DNA of 64,000 bases from Pseudomonas borbori. GTDB lineage: Bacteria; Pseudomonadota; Gammaproteobacteria; Pseudomonadales; Pseudomonadaceae. Below, in pieces: positions 14,688 to 44,032 of this stretch; the stretch's first letter is position 1; each line of letters starts with the position of its first letter. Location of the stretch: contig NZ_FOWX01000011.1 in assembly GCF_900115555.1 (NCBI RefSeq), positions 62,001 through 126,000 of the forward strand, in the 5' to 3' direction. Below the pieces are notes generated by a model that was given only the letters and a program-made list of their open reading frames with translations, did no database searches and was not told the origin of the DNA. Both the position numbers and the translations under genes were made by a program.

Positions 14688-16076
14688 TTAGATTTGCGTG
14701 TCGCCCTTCAGACCGATCTCGAACTGCTCGAGATAGGCATTGGGCTTGCGACCGTCGTAAGGCACGCCGTCGATGGTGTCGGTCAGCGGCGCACGGAAGC
14801 CATCGTCATCGGCCGGCGGGAAATCGCTGGCCGCGAACTTGCCTTCTGCCACCAGTTCGGCGGCCGCCTCGCGGTAGATCGCCGGCAGGTAGACTTTCTT
14901 GGCCATCTCCAGGTACCAGTTGTCCGGCTTGGCTTCGGCGATCTGGCCCCAGCGGCGCATTTGCGTCAGGTACCACACGGCGTCGGAGTAGTAGGGGTAG
15001 GTGGCGTGGTAGCGGAAGAACACGTTGAAGTCCGGAGTCTCGCGCTTGTCGCCCTTCTCGAACTCGAAGGTGCCGGTCATGGAGTTGGCGATCACCTGGG
15101 CGTCGGCGCCGACGTACTCGGGCCGGGAGAGGATTTCCACGGCTTCCTGGCGGTTGGCGTTGTTGTCGGCGTCCAGCCATTGGCCGGCGCGAATCAGCGC
15201 CTTGACCACGCGCTTGTGGGTTTCCGGGTTGGCTTCGGCCCAGCTCTTGGACACGCCGAAGACTTTCTCCGACATGTTCTTGCGGATGGCGTAGTCGGCG
15301 ACTACCGGTACGCCGATGCCCTTGAACACGGCGGCCTGGTTCCACGGCTCGCCGACGCTGTAGCCGTGAATGGTGCCGGCCTCCATGGTGGCCGGCATCT
15401 GCGGCGGCGGGGTCACCGAGAGCAGCGCCTTGGCGTCGATCTGGCCGCTGATGTCGCCCTTGTGCGGGGCGTAGTAACCGGGGTGGATGCCGCCAGCGGC
15501 GAGCCAGTAACGCAGCTCGTAGTTATGGGTGGAAACCGGGAACACCATGCCCAGGTTGAACGACTTGCCGCCGGCGTTGATCTTGTCGATCACCGGCCTC
15601 AGGGCATCGGCCTTGATCGGGTGAACCGGCTTGCCACCTTCCATGGGCACATGCTGCTTCATCTCCTCCCAGACCGCATTGGAGACGGTGATGGCGTTAC
15701 CGTTGAGGTCCATGGTGAAGGCGGTGACCACCTCGGCCTTGGTGCCGAAGCCGATGGTGGCGCCGATCGGCTGGCCGGAGAGCATGTGCGCGCCGTCCAG
15801 TTCGCCGTCGATCACCCGGTCCAGCAGCACCTTCCAGTTGGCCTGGGCTTCCAGGGTGACGTAGAGGCCTTCATCCTCGAAGAAGCCCTTTTCATAGGCG
15901 ATGGCCAGTGGCGCCATATCGGTCAGCTTGATAAAGCCGAACTTCAGCTCGTCCTTCTCCGCCTCGGCTGCGAGGGCGATCTGCAGGCTCAGCGGCGACA
16001 GCAGCATGACCGCGGCACAGCCGAGGCCAGCCAGGGTTTTTTTCAGTAGCGAACGGCGAGTGGTGGAGTTACGCAT
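14688..16076 (-). CDS. nrtA: Nitrate-binding protein of an ABC transporter (NrtA/CmpA family)
   Basis: 462-residue periplasmic binding protein for nitrate/nitrite. The N-terminus ([17 protein letters not shown] then a hydrophobic stretch and ALAAEA) is a Tat-like signal peptide with a twin arginine. Family blocks seen: [63 protein letters not shown] and [26 protein letters not shown] good ribosome site (TGAGGAACC) precedes the ATG. First gene of nrtABC, behind a long structured leader and a sigma-54 promoter. Full length for the family, with no visible lesion. Confidence 0.9.
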
Positions 16077-18976: not shown

Positions 18977-19555
18977 TCAGCCGCCCAACATATCGTGCAT
19001 GGCGATGATCTGTTCGGCGACCTGCAACAGCTTCTGCTGTCGGCTCATGGCCTGACGGCGCATCAGAGTGTAGGCCTCTTCCTCGTTGCAGCTTTTCATC
19101 TTCATCAGCAGGCCCTTGGCCAGTTCGATGCGTTTGCGCTCGGCAAGCTGCGCGTCGCGGGCCTGCAGTTGTGCGCGTAGCGCCTGATCGCTCTCGAAGC
19201 GGGCCATGGCCACATCGAGGATGGGTTGCAGGCGTTGGGCGTGGATGCCTTCGACGATATAGGCGCTGACTCCGGACTGGATGGCCTGGCGCATTACGCC
19301 CGGGTCGTGTTCGTCGGTGAACATGACGATTGGGCGCGGTTGGTCGCGGCTGACCAGCACCACTTGCTCCATCACGTCGCGGCTGGGGGATTCGGTGTCG
19401 ATCAGGATCACGTCGGGACGTACTGCCTCGACGCGTTCGGGCAGGTCGATGGTCAGCCCGGACTCGTCTATCACTTCGAAGCCGGCTTCGATCAGGGCGG
19501 TTTTCAGGCGGCCGACCTTCTTCGGGGTGTCGTTGATCAATAGGATGCGCAGCAT
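18977..19555 (-). CDS. nasT: NasT, ANTAR-domain nitrate antiterminator
   Basis: 192-residue response-regulator-like RNA-binding protein. The N-terminal receiver domain (LRILLINDTPKKVGRLKTAL, ILIDTESPSRDVMEQV, PIVMFTDEHDPGVM) has Asn-Asp in place of the usual acidic pair, so phosphorylation may not control it. The C-terminal ANTAR helix bundle (ERKRIELAKGLLMKMKSCNEEEAY) binds leader RNA. NasS holds NasT until nitrate binds; free NasT then prevents termination in assimilation leaders. ATG 19555 is chosen because CGGAG precedes it; the longer frame to 19681 overlaps nasS. 19 bases after nasS, same operon. Confidence 0.92.
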   Translation of the reverse strand: MLRILLINDTPKKVGRLKTALIEAGFEVIDESGLTIDLPERVEAVRPDVILIDTESPSRDVMEQVVLVSRDQPRPIVMFTDEHDPGVMRQAIQSGVSAYIVEGIHAQRLQPILDVAMARFESDQALRAQLQARDAQLAERKRIELAKGLLMKMKSCNEEEAYTLMRRQAMSRQQKLLQVAEQIIAMHDMLGG

Positions 19556-19574
19556 GGGGTGAATCTCCGGGCAA

Positions 19575-20786
19575 TTACAGGGCGACAGCGTCGCTGTCGG
19601 CCAAGGCGTGGAGGGTAAAGCTGCGGGCATAGCCAGCCGGATCTGAGCCATCCCAGGTCCTGCCATCGAGCAGCGTGGCACTGCGCTGTTCGGCCGGTAC
19701 CCTGATATTCAAAGCCTCCGCCGCTTGGCGGTAGAGGTCAAGCTGTTGCACCTGACGGGCGATAGCGTGGTAATCGGGATCGTCGCGCAGCAGGCCCCAG
19801 CGGCGGAACTGGGTCATGAACCACATGCCGTCGGAGATGTAGGGCATGTTGACTGCGCCGTCAGCGTGAAAGCGCAGCGGATGCGTATCCAGCCAGGCAT
19901 GACCGAGGCCGTCCTGATACTGACCGAGGAAGCGGGGCTGGATGGCGCTCAGTGGTGCATCCACATAGTCGCTGCCACTGAGCAGTTGCGCGGTGCTGCG
20001 CTTGTTCTCTTCATTCTCGTCAATGAAGCGGCTGGCCTCCAGCACGGCCATCACCAGGGCGCGCGCGGTATTGGGGTGTTGCTCGACAAAGGCGCGGGTA
20101 CAGCCGAGTACCTTTTCCGGATGGTCCGGCCAGATCGACTGGGTGGTGGCCAGGGTGAAACCGAGGTTCTCATCGACCGCCTGGGCGCACCAGGGCTCGC
20201 CGGCGCAGAAACCGTCGATGCGCCTGGCTTTGAGATGAGCGACCATTTGTGGTGGCGGCACCACTACGCTGTCGACATCGTGGAGTGGGTGAACTCCCTG
20301 GCTGGCGAGCCAGTAATACAGCCACATGGCATGGGTGCCGGTGGGCAGGGTCTGGGCGAAGGTCAGTCTTGCGCCTTTTTGGTGCGCGCGCAGATTCAGT
20401 GCGTCGCTTGTGGTCACCCCGGCGAATTGCAGGGCATGCGACAGGTTGATGCTCTGGCCGTTCTGGTTCAAGCCCATCAACACCGCCATATCGGTAGCAG
20501 GTGCACCACCAAGGCCGAGTTGTACGCCATAGATCAGGCCGTAGAGGCTGTGCGCCGCATCGAGTTCACCGCTGAGCAGTTTGTCGCGCAGGCTGGCCCA
20601 GGATGCCTGGCGCTGCAAATTGATGGTCAAACCATACTTCTCGGCAAACCCCTGAGTGGCGGCGACAATCACCGAGGCGGCATCGGTCAGGGCCATGAAG
20701 CCCAGATTCAGTATGCGTTTTTCCGGTGCCGAGCTGCCGGCAGCCCAAGCCTGTCTATCGATACGGCTATTTTCATCTTCGCTCAT
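19575..20786 (-). CDS. nasS: NasS, cytoplasmic nitrate sensor
   Basis: 403-residue NrtA-like protein without a signal peptide (it starts MSEDENSRIDRQAWAAG), as expected for the cytosolic sensor NasS rather than a periplasmic binding protein. Family blocks: LNLGFMALTDAASVIVAATQG, LSGELDAAHSLYGLIYG, VVPPPQMVAHLKARRIDGFCAGEPWCAQ and MWFMTQFRRWGLLRDD, parallel to the local nrtA. It binds nitrate/nitrite and releases NasT. Its gene has its own leader with an ANTAR-like hairpin and terminator. Confidence 0.92.
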   Translation of the reverse strand: MSEDENSRIDRQAWAAGSSAPEKRILNLGFMALTDAASVIVAATQGFAEKYGLTINLQRQASWASLRDKLLSGELDAAHSLYGLIYGVQLGLGGAPATDMAVLMGLNQNGQSINLSHALQFAGVTTSDALNLRAHQKGARLTFAQTLPTGTHAMWLYYWLASQGVHPLHDVDSVVVPPPQMVAHLKARRIDGFCAGEPWCAQAVDENLGFTLATTQSIWPDHPEKVLGCTRAFVEQHPNTARALVMAVLEASRFIDENEENKRSTAQLLSGSDYVDAPLSAIQPRFLGQYQDGLGHAWLDTHPLRFHADGAVNMPYISDGMWFMTQFRRWGLLRDDPDYHAIARQVQQLDLYRQAAEALNIRVPAEQRSATLLDGRTWDGSDPAGYARSFTLHALADSDAVAL

Positions 20787-37756: not shown

Positions 37757-37772
37757 TTTTTCAACGGCCTGC
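37731..37772. repeat. Diverged half-copy of the terminal-inverted-repeat element
   Basis: 37757-37772 is TTTTTCAACGGCCTGC, identical to the 16-bp repeat end at 57883-57898. The bases before it (CTTGCCT...CGCTAC) resemble the reverse complement of the other end at 57757-57795. The complementary end is not visible, so this is a fragment. It abuts the stop codon of the PyrD-like gene. Confidence 0.55.
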
Positions 37773-38617
37773 TAGTATTTGCAGCCGGCAAGCAGGCGGT
37801 GCGCCTGCCAGGGCCAGGCACGTAGCAGGACGCTGTGTACCTGTACCAGCTCGGCCCCGGCGGCGAGTCTGGCGGTGACGTGCTCGAAGGTCTGGATACC
37901 GCCGACCGATATCAGTGCCATCTGCTTGCCACACAATTGTCGCAGTTGCTCGATCTGCACGCAGGCCTGGGTCTGCTGGGTTGGGTTCTGCCAGGCGCGG
38001 TAACGCTGGCGAGTCGCCGGAGGGCCCGGGTCATGGGCCGCGAGCAGGCCGTCGTAGCCCAGCTCCAGCAGCAGTTCGACCAAGGCCAGGGGCACCCGGC
38101 CGGGCAGGCAGCGCAGCTTTACCACCAATGGCACGCGGCGTCCGGCCCGGTCCAGGCGCCGCTGCTCGGTGCGCGCAGTGGCCAGCAGCTGGCGCAGTCG
38201 TGGGCGTTGTTCGGCGCCGAGTAGCGCGGCACTGTTGGGGCCGATCAGGTTGAGCGTCAAGTAGTCGGCCAGTGGCCAGGCGCAGGCCAGACCGGCACGC
38301 AGTGTATGCAGGGAAAGATCTGCGTCGAGGCTCAGATTAAGCCCCAGTAGCGCCGTTCCGGGCGCGGGTGTCGCCAGCCGGGACGTTGCAGCGAGTGCGA
38401 GGCTGCCGATCTCATTGCAGCCGAAACCCAGCGCGCCGGCACGCCGGCCGAGCCGGCCAAACCGGTCAAAACCGGCGGCGATGCCCAGCGGCGAGTTGAA
38501 GTGCAAGCCCATGACTTCGAGCGATTTTACTGTCATGGGCGTCCTGGGGTAGCGGGCGCTGAGGCAGGCCAGGCGCAGGGCCAGCTGCTGGCCGAGGTGG
38601 CGCATGGCATCAGCCAT
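37772..38617 (-). CDS. PyrD-like FMN-barrel protein lacking the catalytic serine
   Basis: 281 residues resembling dihydroorotate dehydrogenase class 2, but divergent and shorter than the usual ~335. Retained: MGLHFNSPLGIAAGFDRFGR (FMN entry segment), VPLVVKLRC with the FMN-contacting lysine (~167) and ISVGGIQTFEHVTARLAAGAELVQVHS (phosphate-binding end of the barrel, ~237). Lost: the catalytic SSPNT loop reads NLIGPNS (~123-129), so the serine base is gone, and the usual orotate-binding Asn-rich motifs are not seen. It is probably an FMN oxidoreductase with another substrate. ATG 38617 overlaps the preceding SerC-like gene by eight bases. Last gene of the pqqADE operon. Confidence 0.7.
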   Translation of the reverse strand: MADAMRHLGQQLALRLACLSARYPRTPMTVKSLEVMGLHFNSPLGIAAGFDRFGRLGRRAGALGFGCNEIGSLALAATSRLATPAPGTALLGLNLSLDADLSLHTLRAGLACAWPLADYLTLNLIGPNSAALLGAEQRPRLRQLLATARTEQRRLDRAGRRVPLVVKLRCLPGRVPLALVELLLELGYDGLLAAHDPGPPATRQRYRAWQNPTQQTQACVQIEQLRQLCGKQMALISVGGIQTFEHVTARLAAGAELVQVHSVLLRAWPWQAHRLLAGCKY

Positions 38618-39731
38618 GGTGGCGTTCGAAATCGTGCATGAAGTCCCGCAAGCGTTCGACCCCGGCCAGTGGCATGGCGTTGTACAGGCTGGCGCGGATG
38701 CCGCCGACGGCGCCGTGGCCCTGCAAGTTATACAGTCCGACCTGCTGCGCTTCGGCCAGGAAACTCGGTAACAGATGCTCGTCGCGCAATTGGAAACACA
38801 GGCTGATGGGCGAGCGATCCGGCGCGCGTTGGGGGCAATGGTAGAGGGCGCTGGCATCGATGGCGCGATACAGCAGCTGGCTCTTCTCCCGGTTGGCGCG
38901 GGCCATGGCGTCCAGTCCGCCCTGCTGGCCGATCCAGCGCAGCATCAAGGCGGCGCAATACAGGGCGAAGGTCGGCGGGGTGCACAGGCGGCTCTGCTGT
39001 TCGGCCTGCAGGGTGTAGCTGAACGGCGACGGCAGTCCGGCCTGCGGCGGCTTGAGCAGGTCGTCGCGGACGATCAGCAGGCACAGCCCGGCGACGCCGA
39101 GGTTCTTCTGGGCGCTGGCGTAGATCAGGCCGAAGCGCTCGATCGGCAGTGGGCGGGTGAGAAAGTCCGAAGTCATGTCCGCCACCAGCGGCACCGGCAG
39201 CTCGGGGAAATCCTGGAGCTGCAGGCCGTTGGCGGTCTCGTTGCTGGTGATGTGGCAGTAGCCGGCCTGCGAGTTCAGGCGCCACTCTCTGACGTCTGGA
39301 ATCGCCGTGAAGCCGTCGTGTTCGCCACTGGCGATGATGTTCAGCGGTACATGGCGACGGGCTTCGGTGATTGCCTTGGTCGCCCAATAACCGCTTTGCA
39401 GATAATCGGCCGACTGGCCGGCGGCGAGCAGGTTCAACGGCAGCAAACCGAACTGGCAGGAGGCGCCGCCATGCATGAACAGCACACGGTAGTTCGAGGG
39501 GATGGCCAATAGCTTGCGCAGATCCTGTTCGGTCTCGTGCATCAGGTCTTTGAACGGCGCGCCGGTGAATGGCAGTTCCAGTATCGACTGACCGCTGGCG
39601 CGCCAGTCCGGCAGCTCGTCCTGAATCTGCGCGAGCACCGTCGGCGGCAGCATCGCCGGCCCGGCGGCGAAGTTGTAGCGCTCGCCGCCGCGGGTCGCCG
39701 GTGCGTCTTCAGGAAAACAGGTGCAGGCCAT
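38610..39731 (-). CDS. SerC-like PLP aminotransferase with altered phosphate site
   Basis: 373 residues, clearly related to phosphoserine aminotransferase: RYNFAAGPAMLPPTVL, FMHGGASCQFGLLPLNLL, DMTSDFLTRPLPIERFGLIYA and the PLP lysine in ASAQKNLGVAGL, ending GGIRASLYNAMPLAGVERL. The substrate-phosphate residues of E. coli SerC (His41-Arg42 and Arg329, from memory) are replaced: the SHR segment reads PFT (54-56) and GHR reads GHG (338-340). Arg346, which would bind the carboxylate, is kept. So a non-phosphorylated amino- or keto-acid substrate is likely. The first ~14 residues (two Cys) are an extension. Overlaps the membrane gene upstream by 23 bases. Confidence 0.8.
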   Translation of the reverse strand: MACTCFPEDAPATRGGERYNFAAGPAMLPPTVLAQIQDELPDWRASGQSILELPFTGAPFKDLMHETEQDLRKLLAIPSNYRVLFMHGGASCQFGLLPLNLLAAGQSADYLQSGYWATKAITEARRHVPLNIIASGEHDGFTAIPDVREWRLNSQAGYCHITSNETANGLQLQDFPELPVPLVADMTSDFLTRPLPIERFGLIYASAQKNLGVAGLCLLIVRDDLLKPPQAGLPSPFSYTLQAEQQSRLCTPPTFALYCAALMLRWIGQQGGLDAMARANREKSQLLYRAIDASALYHCPQRAPDRSPISLCFQLRDEHLLPSFLAEAQQVGLYNLQGHGAVGGIRASLYNAMPLAGVERLRDFMHDFERHHG

Positions 39732-40209
39732 GACCGCCAGCCGCCATCAGAAACAACAAGGGTATCGACAGGATGGTGTTGCTGCGCGAGGAGAGGAAGG
39801 TGATCCGTGAGCAGCGTACCCGCTCCTCCAGGCTGGCCGGAACGAAGCCCAGCAGCTTCTTCTGGTGCGGCCAGAGCACCAGCCACAGATTGAGCAGCAT
39901 CAGGGTGCCAATCCAGGCGCCGAGGCCGATCACCGCCAGCGGGCCCTGCAGCAGCAGGGCGTCTTCCAGCCAGCCGCGCTGCCAGAGCATCAGCAGGCCG
40001 GAGATCCAGACCACCAGCGAGGCGTAGCGGAAGATGCCGTGCTCGCGCTTCATCCGCTGTTCCAGATCGCGGTTCAGGGTGCTGGTGTCGATACCGTTCT
40101 GCAGCGGCACGAACCTGGGGTTCTGGATGAAGTTGGCGTAGTTGTGGCCGACCCAGACCAGGGCGAACAGCAGGTGGGCGTAGCGAGCCAGTAGATCGAT
40201 GACGGCCAT
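39709..40209 (-). CDS. PuuD/DUF989-like membrane protein
   Basis: 166 residues, mostly hydrophobic, with about four TM segments (IDLLARYAHLLFALVWVGH, YASLVVWISGLLMLW, AVIGLGAWIGTLMLLNLWLVLW, ILSIPLLFLMAAGGHGLHLF). Motifs VGHNYANFIQNPRF, LWPHQKKLLG and RSNTILSIPLLFLM match the membrane domain of urate hydroxylase PuuD / DUF989; no C-terminal cytochrome c domain is present. Several histidines lie in or near the helices (H12, H22, H56, H114), which could bind haem. TAGGAG precedes the ATG. It lies between the small peptide gene and the SerC-like gene, overlapping the latter. Confidence 0.72.
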   Translation of the reverse strand: MAVIDLLARYAHLLFALVWVGHNYANFIQNPRFVPLQNGIDTSTLNRDLEQRMKREHGIFRYASLVVWISGLLMLWQRGWLEDALLLQGPLAVIGLGAWIGTLMLLNLWLVLWPHQKKLLGFVPASLEERVRCSRITFLSSRSNTILSIPLLFLMAAGGHGLHLFS

Positions 40210-40218
40210 GGGCAGCTC

Positions 40219-40314
40219 CTATACCAGCCAGAACTGGAGCAACAGGTAGCAGCCCAGGGTCAGTGCGAGGCCGGCGCCGACGGTGCCGGCGAAGGAGTCA
40301 TGGGGCAGTTTCAA
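40219..40314 (-). CDS. 31-residue single-span membrane peptide gene
   Basis: A small frame starting at TTG 40314 with AGGGGG 7 bases upstream, overlapping the 3' end of pqqE by 17 bases and ending 9 bases before the next ATG. The product starts MKLPHDSFAGTVGAG and continues as one hydrophobic helix (LALTLGCYLLLQFWLV). The spacing fills the gap between pqqE and the membrane protein gene exactly, and its stop codon is part of the next ribosome site. Similar short subunits accompany membrane oxidases, so it may assemble with the PuuD-like protein. Function inferred only from position. Confidence 0.6.
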   Translation of the reverse strand: MKLPHDSFAGTVGAGLALTLGCYLLLQFWLV

Positions 40315-41443
40315 GGTTCACCCCCTGGCTGGCGTGGCGCGCAATCAGTGTGCCCGTCGGCTGTGGCGGCTGCTGCGCCAGTTCCACCGCCTGCTGGATC
40401 AGGTGGTGATGCGGCGACTTGCTGCACGCCGGGTCGGTGTTGTCGCCGGAACCGGTGAGCAACAGCGCCTGGCAGCGGCAACCGCCGAAGTCCTTTTCCT
40501 TCTCGTCGCAGCTGCGGCACGGCTCGGGCATCCAGGCATCGCCGCGGTACAGGTTGAAGACCGGCGAGTCGTGCCAGATCTCGCTCAGAGGCTGTTGGCG
40601 TACGTTGGGGAACTCCAGATCCTTGAAACTACTGGCCTGGGAGCAGGGCAGCACATTGCCGTTGGGTGCGATGGTCAGGTGGATGGCGCCCCAACCGTTC
40701 ATGCAGGCCTTGGGCCGGCCTTCGTAATAGTCGGGGATGACGAAGAAGATGGTCAGGCGCTCGCCCAGACGTTTGCGAGCTTCTTGCACCTGGGCTTCGG
40801 CGCGCAGCAGTTCCTCGCGGGTCGGCATCAATTGCTCGCGATTGAGCAGCGCCCAGTTGTAGTACTGCACGTTGGCCAGTTCCAGATACTCCACCCCCAG
40901 CTCGGCGGCGAAGTCGATGATCTGCGGGATCTGGCCGATATTCTGCCGGGTGATGGGCACGTTGAGCACCATCGGGAAGCCCTGGGCCTTGATGGCGCGG
41001 GCCATGCCGAGCTTGCGCTCCAGGCAATCGACGCCGGCCAGCTGATGCGCCGTGGCCTTGTCGGTGGACTGGAAACCGAGCTGGATATGCCGCAGGCCGG
41101 CGTCTTTGAGTGCGCGCAGGCGGGCATCGGTGAGACCTATGCCGGAGGTGATCAGGTTGGTGTAGTAGCCCAGGCGATCGGCTTCGGCCACCAGAATTTC
41201 AAGGTCCTTGCGCAGCGTCGGTTCGCCGCCGGAAAAACCGATCTGCATGGCGCCGAGTTCGCGGGCCTGACGCATCACGTCGATCCATTCCGCCGTGCTC
41301 AGCTCATTGCGGCGGTAGTCGGCAAAGTTGCGTGGGTTACTGCAGAACACGCATTGCAACGGGCACTGGTAGGTTAACTCCAATAGCAACCAGACCGGGT
41401 TGCCGTTGCCATCAAGCCTTAATTCGGATCCAGCCTTTGCCAC
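40298..41443 (-). CDS. pqqE: PqqE, radical SAM enzyme
   Basis: 381 residues; crosslinks Glu and Tyr in the PqqA peptide as the first step of PQQ formation. Radical SAM ligands CPLQCVFC (C-x3-C-x2-C) follow LLELTYQ; the SPASM domain has the auxiliary-cluster cysteines in ACMNGWGAIHLTIAPNGNVLPCS and EPCRSCDEKEKDFGGCRC. GTG 41443 is chosen as start because GGAGG lies 6 bases upstream and it yields the canonical N-terminus; the ATG at 41473 has no such support. Overlaps pqqD by 32 bases, as is usual. No pqqB or pqqC adjoins. Confidence 0.93.
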   Translation of the reverse strand: MAKAGSELRLDGNGNPVWLLLELTYQCPLQCVFCSNPRNFADYRRNELSTAEWIDVMRQARELGAMQIGFSGGEPTLRKDLEILVAEADRLGYYTNLITSGIGLTDARLRALKDAGLRHIQLGFQSTDKATAHQLAGVDCLERKLGMARAIKAQGFPMVLNVPITRQNIGQIPQIIDFAAELGVEYLELANVQYYNWALLNREQLMPTREELLRAEAQVQEARKRLGERLTIFFVIPDYYEGRPKACMNGWGAIHLTIAPNGNVLPCSQASSFKDLEFPNVRQQPLSEIWHDSPVFNLYRGDAWMPEPCRSCDEKEKDFGGCRCQALLLTGSGDNTDPACSKSPHHHLIQQAVELAQQPPQPTGTLIARHASQGVNLETAP

Positions 41444-41705
41444 GGGACACCTCCAGGAAGCGCAGGACGCCATTGCGAATCACATCCGCGTCGGATACTT
41501 CATACAGTGCGCCAAGTTTTTCGATCAATTCGGCTACGTTAGTATTGCCATCGCAGCAGTTGAGAATGTCGCCGCCGGTTTTATTGAGTTTGACGATGCC
41601 TTCCGGATAAAGAAGGACATGGGCTTGCTGCGACTGTTCCCAGCGGAACATGAAAGGCGGACGAATTTCGAAACGATCTGCCGGGTCTATCGAAGCAGTT
41701 GTCAT
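41412..41705 (-). CDS. pqqD: PqqD, peptide chaperone for PqqE
   Basis: 97-residue RiPP-recognition protein. It binds PqqA and presents it to PqqE. Seen: RFEIRPPFMFRWEQSQQAHVLLYPEGIVKLN, the wing-helix pattern TGGDILNCCDGNTNVAELIEKL, and the tail DVIRNGVLRFLEVSRGKGWI. Start at 41705 (MTTAS) is preferred; a 15-codon extension to 41750 is possible. It begins 62 bases after the pqqA stop, where pqqB and pqqC normally stand. Confidence 0.9.
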   Translation of the reverse strand: MTTASIDPADRFEIRPPFMFRWEQSQQAHVLLYPEGIVKLNKTGGDILNCCDGNTNVAELIEKLGALYEVSDADVIRNGVLRFLEVSRGKGWIRIKA

Positions 41706-41767
41706 GGGGTCTTTCTCGCAGTTGATGCGGCGGAGCGCCATCTCAGGCACCCCGCCGGGTTAACGGC

Positions 41768-41842
41768 TTAGCGCACGTAAACGTACGCGGTGACTTCGAA
41801 GCCCAGACGCAGGTCGCAAAAGTCCGGATCTATCCACTGCAT
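41768..41842 (-). CDS. pqqA: PqqA, precursor peptide
   Basis: 24-residue peptide, too short for ordinary gene calling. It starts MQWIDPDFCDLRLGFEV and contains the conserved E-x3-Y pair (Glu16 and Tyr20 in FEVTAY) that PqqE joins. CAGGAG lies 8 bases before the ATG. It opens the minus-strand operon pqqA-D-E and is divergent from the aldehyde dehydrogenase gene. A cysteine at position 9 is present in the leader part. Confidence 0.88.
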   Translation of the reverse strand: MQWIDPDFCDLRLGFEVTAYVYVR

Positions 41843-42511
41843 GGCCTATCTCCTGTTTTGGCTAAGTTTAATGTTTTGCGGTGATGCAGCTTGAGGTTAC
41901 AGGCAGGTTTTGGCGCACATTAATACGACTTTGGAGTCAATTTTCCGGGTAGTTGGTCGTAGAGTCGTTGCGTTATTTAAATAGTTGGAGCGATGGTTGG
42001 TGTTGTTGATTTTAATCAAGGCTGAATGCGTGCTTGTCTGGGAGGCTTAACGCTTTTTTTGTTTGCTGGTTATATTGCGGATTGTTTTCTCGAGCGAGAT
42101 AACTTTAATGGGCGGGCAGTTTTCTGACTATATGAGCCGGTGCCGAACACGGCGGCGGCTTGCCGATTATGTCGATGCTCAGCGAAAGCCGAGTAGGCCA
42201 TTCATGCGGGAGTGGGAGGCTGTATGGGCGCTGCTGCCAATCTGTGCTATCGCTCTTGCTCGGCATGCTCATATATATGCCCGTTTTGGCCGGATGCCGG
42301 CAGCGCGCGGTAGTAGAAGCAGCTACGCTGGGATGTCCAGCCCCAACTCGCTGGCAGACCCCGGCATAGGCACCTGCGCATCTACTACCAAATGACGAGA
42401 GGTTTTGTGCCATGGGCGCATACCGGCCGAGCTGGCGGCTTCCTAATATCGAACCATGACCTGTTCCGCGCTCCTGGGGCAGGCTCCGACAAAACAACAG
42501 AGGTCATCATC
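41843..42511. other. Divergent control region between pqqA and the aldehyde dehydrogenase gene
   Basis: 669 bases, AT-rich in the first half. It holds a perfect Anr/FNR box at 42006-42019. The plus-strand frame 42063-42395 and the minus-strand frame 42105-42497 have no recognised family or ribosome sites and are treated as spurious. Confidence 0.5.
42006..42019. promoter_or_regulatory. Anr/FNR-type binding site
   Basis: TTGAT-TTTA-ATCAA matches the consensus TTGAT-N4-ATCAA at every fixed position. It lies 164 bases upstream of pqqA and about 490 bases upstream of the aldehyde dehydrogenase gene. This points to oxygen-dependent control of the pqqADE operon, probably through Anr. Confidence 0.7.

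Positions 42512-44032
<1,521 letters not shown>

Follow-up and report, generated by a model that had tools for sequence, protein, structure and literature searches.

What does a bacterium make with a pqqADE operon that holds neither pqqB nor pqqC and continues into four further genes? The question arises from a 64,000-nucleotide stretch of the Pseudomonas borbori genome (hereafter the window; positions 62001-126000 of contig C44 in the assembly G000, 5.27 Mb in 96 contigs), in which an earlier note had described seven such genes at 37772-41842. This seven-gene cassette is a further member of a cluster type that has already been published (PMC12423496, as far as its accessible text describes it), to which we add evidence, and we consider it probable, if well short of certain, that the cassette is an anoxia-induced route to pyrroloquinoline quinone (PQQ) or a near relative of it, replacing the O2-dependent PqqB and PqqC in nitrate respiration.

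The cassette and the canonical operon

Seven minus-strand frames, taken from the reading of open reading frames (ORFs), run from 41842 down to 37772 and are separated by gaps of at most 62 bases or by short overlaps:

41768-41842, minus strand: pqqA2, 24-residue precursor MQWIDPDFCDLRLGFEVTAYVYVR with E-x3-Y; PF08042
41412-41705, minus strand: pqqD2, peptide chaperone, 97 residues from ATG 41705 (GTG 41750 likewise in frame)
40298-41443, minus strand: pqqE2, radical SAM/SPASM enzyme, from GTG 41443 (ATG 41473 likewise in frame)
40219-40314, minus strand: 31-residue membrane peptide with a TTG start and an M-x-L-P-H-D/E head
39709-40209, minus strand: short DUF989/Urate_ox_N membrane protein of the PuuD type, 166 residues, with three cassette-specific histidines
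38610-39731, minus strand: SerC-like class V aminotransferase, its pyridoxal-phosphate (PLP) lysine present and its phosphate-pocket residues gone
37772-38617, minus strand: PyrD-like flavoprotein, from ATG 38617, the catalytic Ser of dihydroorotate dehydrogenase gone

All the frames of the earlier note were thus present, and the family profiles of Pfam and NCBIfam agreed with its assignments. PqqA2 scored 40.1 bits on PF08042 (Pfam cut-off 21.1), PqqD2 60.6 bits on PF05402 (cut-off 23.4), passing the TIGR03859 cut-off as well and falling below the stricter one of PRK02079, PqqE2 507.2 bits on TIGR02109 (curated NCBIfam cut-off 381.35) and the short DUF989 protein 40.4 bits on PF06181 (Urate_ox_N, cut-off 26.9); the aminotransferase came out as Aminotran_5/SerC-type and the flavoprotein as DHO_dh, and the 31-residue peptide had no family match in this profile search. 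With starts at ATG 41705 and GTG 41443, the spacings given earlier were reproduced, namely a 62-base gap between pqqA2 and pqqD2 followed by overlaps of 32, 17, 23 and 8 bases, and the 32-base pqqD/pqqE overlap recurs in 5 of the 11 other cassettes described below.

No pqqB or pqqC frame was found between the seven genes by ORF reading. A PqqE search of the genome returned a second copy on contig C49, with 609 bits against 507 for PqqE2, and there a second pqqA is followed by pqqB (410.7 bits, cut-off 245), pqqC (404.8, cut-off 240), pqqD (136.5, cut-off 101) and pqqE (609.6, cut-off 381.35), a complete canonical set, and then by a frame resembling a peptidase (here and below, "resembling" marks a name taken from sequence alone). 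The genome search proposed in the earlier note for pqqB, pqqC and a second pqqA thus found all three, with the sole pqqC match on C49; the absence of pqqB and pqqC that it had reported stands for the window operon and fails for the genome. An assembly artefact or a loss as the cause of the missing genes was ruled out by the complete set on C49. The window operon supplements normal PQQ synthesis and is no truncated version of the canonical operon. Upstream of the C49 pqqA (L030:14546-15399), two frames resemble an IS630-type transposase.

Twelve genomes belonging to four families carry these seven genes in one and the same order, comprising six Pseudomonas loci (the window, L031, L032, L049, L050 and L051) and six outside the genus, and canonical pqqC was present in all 12. 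A pattern scan for the PyrD-like protein across 84,980 species, which detects close relatives only and was the search used beyond the class of GTDB, returned two relatives, Pseudomonas aestuarii SA3-5 and Pseudomonas sp. sp1636, both sitting within the seven-gene order, and recovered none of the published alphaproteobacterial clusters. With the DUF989 protein as probe in overlapping samples of the genus (398 genomes), order (390) and class (369), strong matches were obtained in 5 of the 398 genus genomes, and matches above 200 bits outside the genus came from one member of the same family, two of another family of the order and three of two further families of the class. We examined the neighbourhoods of these six and of five weaker matches (129 bits or less, among them L109 on a 7.3-kb contig), and found no pqq genes at the five weaker loci. 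The homologous cassettes rule out a one-species oddity; a plasmid-borne cassette was also sought, and none of 72,556 plasmid records matched the PyrD-like protein at 1e-8. The survey thus sustains the earlier suggestion that the seven genes form a single coupled unit. The same note had set against its proposal the joint occurrence of a complete pqqABCDE elsewhere and an unconserved gene order; the former was found, whereas the order proved to be conserved.

The last 15 residues of the precursor (DLRLGFEVTAYVYVR) are identical in all 12 cassettes, with E-x3-Y intact; past the Tyr, this core is unlike the canonical PqqA encoded in the same genomes. PqqA2 of the window has no amino-acid change relative to the five Pseudomonas relatives, against which the ratio of non-synonymous to synonymous substitution rates (dN/dS) was 0.05-0.18 for PqqE2 and the DUF989 protein and 0.12-0.28 for PqqD2; the SerC-like and PyrD-like proteins gave 0.24-0.32, and the membrane peptide, whose M-x-L-P-H-D/E head is kept in 12 of 12 cassettes, gave 0.08-0.36. 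Gene starts were approximate for, among others, the PyrD-like protein of G420 and the SerC-like proteins of G909 and G896. A tree built from 12 cassette and 13 canonical PqqE proteins has a single branch, supported at 100/100, that parts the two sets, and the branching inside each is broadly alike; PqqE2 is therefore an old paralogue and not a recent copy. G909 carries two pqqC copies and, beside its cassette copy, two canonical-type PqqE proteins, one of them long-branched.

These data bear on one alternative explanation, a duplicated pqqADE accompanied by drifting bystander genes of no special role. The faster evolution of the SerC-like and PyrD-like proteins would fit it, but seven genes in one order across 12 genomes of four families, an invariant PqqA2 core, purifying selection and the upstream box in 9 of 12 cassettes (see below) do not, and we strongly disfavor it as very improbable.

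Anaerobic context of the cassette

The anaerobic context, which had escaped the earlier note, is the main clue to cassette function. Two elements lie upstream of pqqA2 in the window:

42006-42019, no strand assigned: perfect FNR/ANR/DNR-type palindrome, unique in the window, with its start 177 bases ahead of pqqA2
41978-41983, minus strand: candidate -10 element TATTTA, 22 bases after the box

We take TTGAT-N4-ATCAA to be the FNR/ANR/DNR consensus, of which 0.02 perfect copies would be expected by chance in the window and one was observed. Scanning 500 bases upstream of pqqA2, we found a perfect box starting 153-218 bases before the gene in 9 of 12 cassettes, with varying inner bases, and in L105 a 9/10 box at the same place as in its relative L104. 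The 12 loci, 265,195 bases in all, contain 11 perfect boxes; nine are those just described, and the other two lie elsewhere in L106. The canonical pqqA genes gave a different picture: none of 11, from 11 of the 12 genomes (L128 and L130 excluded, having no pqqA match), had even an 8/10 site in the 400 bases upstream. Each of the six Pseudomonas loci has a TATT element (ACTATT or ATTATT) at a constant distance past the box, so that the box would centre near -41 if, as we assume, the class II FNR spacing rule can be applied to the box/-10 distance at pqqA2; at the distant loci no TATT element was found at that spacing from the box.

The hosts carry genes of nitrate respiration. With one profile or one query for each gene and fixed thresholds, narG was found, within the genus sample, in all five genomes with the cassette and in 87 of the 393 others (Fisher p 6e-4, ancestry ignored) and in six of the seven remaining holders, hence in 11 of 12 overall. 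NorB was detected in 10 of 12 holders against 10 of 35 cassette-free comparators of the same genus (p 1.8e-3 for the six Pseudomonas holders, ancestry again ignored). The window genome has two narG genes and NorB, and a nitrate-respiring or denitrifying capacity of the hosts is deduced from such genes only. In G697 the cassette is flanked by narG at about 5 kb and, on the opposite side, by norB at about 8 kb, and a histidine kinase and a LuxR-type response regulator come just before pqqA2; in G909 the divergent neighbor is nrdD, the anaerobic ribonucleotide reductase. As for other distances, the second narG of the window genome (C44:148619-152347) is on the cassette contig, about 45 kb off, and a narG of G244 (C12:101347-105075) is about 13 kb from the cassette. 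Frames resembling NrtA/NasS-type nitrate-binding proteins and a NasT-like regulator occur in the window at 14688-16076, 18977-19681 and 19575-20786, a possible nitrate-assimilation region.

A second link leads to alcohol oxidation, starting with the divergent neighbor of the window cassette:

42488-44032, plus strand: exaC-type acetaldehyde dehydrogenase, 946.5 bits on NF050026 (cut-off 900)

This neighbor probably belongs to the same physiological system as the cassette; the gene on the other side resembles pabB. In six of the seven Pseudomonadaceae loci the next gene past the cassette, on the opposite strand, encodes a PQQ alcohol dehydrogenase (591 residues; 793 bits on TIGR03075, cut-off 480), with exaC on the other side, and in the window genome this enzyme is on the same contig (C44:22008-23780), about 76 kb away. 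The dehydrogenase of L032 (9037-10812) and its orthologues contain W-D-F-D-G. An Asp two positions after the catalytic Asp is a mark of lanthanide-dependent PQQ alcohol dehydrogenases, and the motif suggests that the neighboring enzyme may use rare earths.

G308 and G420 have their canonical pqqABCDE immediately past exaC. Together with the canonical pqqC of all 12 holders, this arrangement would suit a cassette that merely boosts PQQ synthesis at low oxygen, supplying extra cross-linked PqqA to be finished in trans by canonical PqqB and PqqC on trace O2 while the four other genes tune or support the process. Such a role would leave four genes, conserved in the same order across four families and all under purifying selection, with nothing to do, and we hold it to be improbable.

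The four extra proteins and a proposed route

The SerC-like protein aligns over its full length with phosphoserine aminotransferases of known structure. Its PLP lysine is kept, as QKN or QKT, in 12 of 12 aligned sequences, and so is the arginine of GG-x-R, whereas in all 12 HR has become F followed by T, S or G, GGAR has become GGA followed by S, T, C or Y, and GHR has become GH followed by G, A, C, S or P (the HR site and most PLP-lysine sites were taken from the 12-row alignment). His41-Arg42, Arg77 and Arg329, by the numbering and roles we assume, form the phosphate pocket of SerC. Since these phosphate-holding residues are replaced in 12 of 12 proteins, the enzyme is unlikely to act on phosphoserine, its 442.3 bits on PRK05355 (cut-off 253) notwithstanding. 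The PyrD-like protein has likewise parted from its family. Class 2 dihydroorotate dehydrogenases presumably have their catalytic Ser in N-x-S-S-P-N; the human N-V-S-S-P-N aligns to N-L-I-G-P-N, and the 12 rows have G, N, R or a gapped region at the catalytic column, a loss that makes dihydroorotate dehydrogenase activity unlikely. The presumed FMN-phosphate region has retained its glycine pair and its G-A in 12 of 12, and among the profile matches listed no PyrD model reached its cut-off.

Among the four, conservation is highest in the DUF989 protein. All 12 cassette copies bear an RCSR motif and three histidines, placed in GHNY, EHG and WPHQKK. Six of these copies were set beside three PuuD proteins and five short DUF989 proteins that stand alone, and neither of the latter two groups has the histidines or RCSR at the same columns; the EHG histidine is the least specific of the three because PuuD has a His one residue later. 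The PuuD proteins were those of L038, L039 and L046, with L040-L045 and L047 excluded as wrong reading frames. No CXXCH occurs in the 166-residue cassette protein, whereas the three PuuD proteins of the same genus have it. Structures predicted from three-row alignments were too poor to be of help, the mean predicted local distance difference test score (pLDDT) being 54 for the PyrD-like protein and 50 for that of the DUF989 type. Short DUF989 membrane proteins that stand alone were common in the order and class samples, and five such loci were inspected:

L109, 2301-2916: stand-alone DUF989 locus
L110, 8882-9385: stand-alone DUF989 locus
L111, 8676-9161: stand-alone DUF989 locus
L112, 8157-8804: stand-alone DUF989 locus
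L113, 9208-9699: stand-alone DUF989 locus

At three of the five (L109, L110 and L113) the gene is beside genes resembling argD, argF or argG, and in L109 a small membrane peptide, cassette-like, precedes one DUF989 gene. The DUF989 protein and the peptide may thus represent an older two-subunit module.

The route we propose would begin with FNR, ANR or DNR turning the cassette on in anoxia, as the box sequence suggests. PqqD2 and PqqE2 would cross-link the Glu and Tyr of PqqA2 in a radical SAM step that requires no O2, and a peptidase encoded elsewhere would release the cross-linked pair. The ring oxidations normally carried out by PqqB and PqqC with O2 would fall to the DUF989 protein, its small partner peptide and the PyrD-like flavoprotein, with the electrons passing to the respiratory chain, while the SerC-like enzyme would work on an amino-acid arm of the intermediate and not on phosphoserine. 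The resulting cofactor, either PQQ or a compound close to it, would supply the periplasmic alcohol dehydrogenase, the neighbor in most Pseudomonadaceae loci, during nitrate respiration. We infer this assignment of enzymes to steps; for the DUF989 protein it is reasonable because the related PuuD has been suggested to feed electrons to cytochrome c (PMC4562309). The proposal of the earlier note, that PqqB and PqqC are replaced or the Glu-Tyr core diverted, is plausible.

Diversion of the core is the alternative that deserves most attention. The aminotransferase and the flavoprotein could channel the Glu-Tyr core into some other cofactor or small molecule, such as a keto- or amino-quinone, and the cassette would then make a PqqA2-derived molecule other than PQQ for use in anoxia. 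We know of no counterpart of the aminotransferase in PQQ synthesis; the PqqA2 core shows no variation among the 12 cassettes and is unlike canonical PqqA after the Tyr, PqqE2 forms a separate clade, and canonical PQQ synthesis is always at hand (pqqC in 12 of 12). Yet an ordinary PQQ-family alcohol dehydrogenase adjoins six of the seven Pseudomonadaceae loci, E-x3-Y is intact, and anoxia alone would account for replaced O2-dependent steps, so that we rate this alternative unlikely, though well worth weighing. In a more specific form, which we think rather unlikely, new O2-free chemistry by a membrane DUF989 oxidase with its peptide subunit, together with an aminotransferase and a dihydroorotate-dehydrogenase-like flavoprotein that have both been put to new use, would turn PqqA2 into a non-PQQ redox cofactor, adopted by certain periplasmic dehydrogenases in nitrate respiration.

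Several observations weigh against the anaerobic PQQ route that we prefer. In the 500 bases upstream of pqqA2, L103 has no box of at least 8/10 and L106 at best one of 8/10, and in the Pseudomonas loci and L107 the box is placed between divergent genes and could serve the other one. The counts are not independent because six of the 12 loci are close Pseudomonas relatives, and the independent cases of the box are fewer, perhaps four lineages. G909 is without narG and its NorB match has only 39% identity, and G1116 and G896 gave no NorB match at E 1e-40. Conversely, narG is common without a cassette (the 87 of 393 genomes, and also G054), and G663 has NorB without one, so that anaerobic respirers do not need one. 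No match to the PQQ alcohol dehydrogenase was found in the 19-kb stretches around five distant cassettes. Finally, PQQ retains the nitrogens of both Glu and Tyr, and an aminotransferase is for that reason not an obvious step.

Published clusters and related systems

PQQ synthesis has been taken to need O2, so that the use of PQQ enzymes in anoxia would depend on PQQ that is imported or left from aerobic growth (PMC11102522, PMC12997753). Klebsiella and P. aeruginosa, which have canonical genes only, are described as making no PQQ anaerobically in the part of PMC12423496 (Mol Microbiol, June 2025) available to us. The same text reports that Hyphomicrobium denitrificans has second copies of pqqA, D and E together with puuD-, serC- and pyrD-like genes (Hden_0548-0553), that further alpha-, beta- and gammaproteobacterial denitrifiers carry such clusters beside canonical pqqABCDE, and that transcripts of Hden_0551-0553 drop in two regulator mutants, as do those of denitrification genes; it speculates that the clusters finish PQQ synthesis without oxygen, an independent proposal in favor of the route preferred here. 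The gene cluster that the earlier note had read as a possible new pathway is therefore already on record, as is the idea of O2-free PQQ. The published clusters share with our cassette the gene content, by name, the extra canonical pqqABCDE and the denitrifying hosts; they come from other hosts than the cassettes described here, and the likeness is drawn from gene names and description. In the accessible main text of that paper neither "fnr" nor "31 amino acids" occurs, unlike our cassette with its FNR-type box and 31-residue peptide. No other report of the cluster was recognized in a literature search made mostly of titles and listings, preprints excluded. As far as this search shows, five points are added here: an upstream FNR-type box, for which canonical pqqA genes served as control; the conservation of the small membrane peptide; a PqqE clade distinct from the canonical one; the loss of the parent active sites; and histidines specific to the cassette copies.

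If the cassette does yield PQQ or an equivalent without O2, it would explain how PQQ enzymes can serve alcohol-fed denitrification, point to O2-free chemistry for the oxidation that PqqC performs with molecular oxygen, and add a further case of paired aerobic and anaerobic cofactor routes, for which the ubiquinone hydroxylases UbiIFH and UbiTUV offer an example (PMC12423496, accessible part). With an upstream box, 12 natural variants and few genes, the cassette is readily testable in Pseudomonas.

Among related systems, PuuD, which oxidizes urate and has been suggested to transfer electrons to cytochrome c instead of producing H2O2 (PMC4562309, which in its accessible part also mentions short four-helix DUF989 proteins in other gene contexts), shares the Urate_ox_N/DUF989 core helices with the cassette protein; the latter has no cytochrome c domain, is 166 residues long and bears extra His that the three PuuD proteins compared do not have at those columns. 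The canonical pqqABCDE shares homologues of pqqA, pqqD and pqqE and an E-x3-Y precursor with the cassette, which differs in having no pqqB or pqqC, four other genes and a PqqE clade apart, and a perfect FNR-type box in 9 of 12 cases against none of 11 canonical genes. Mycofactocin is a redox cofactor made from a ribosomal peptide with a PqqD-like chaperone, a radical SAM/SPASM enzyme and a flavoprotein, and resembles the cassette in these types of component. The two are nevertheless distinct, as PqqE2 reaches 92.9 bits on the mycofactocin enzyme model (cut-off 265) and the cassette precursor is of the PqqA type.

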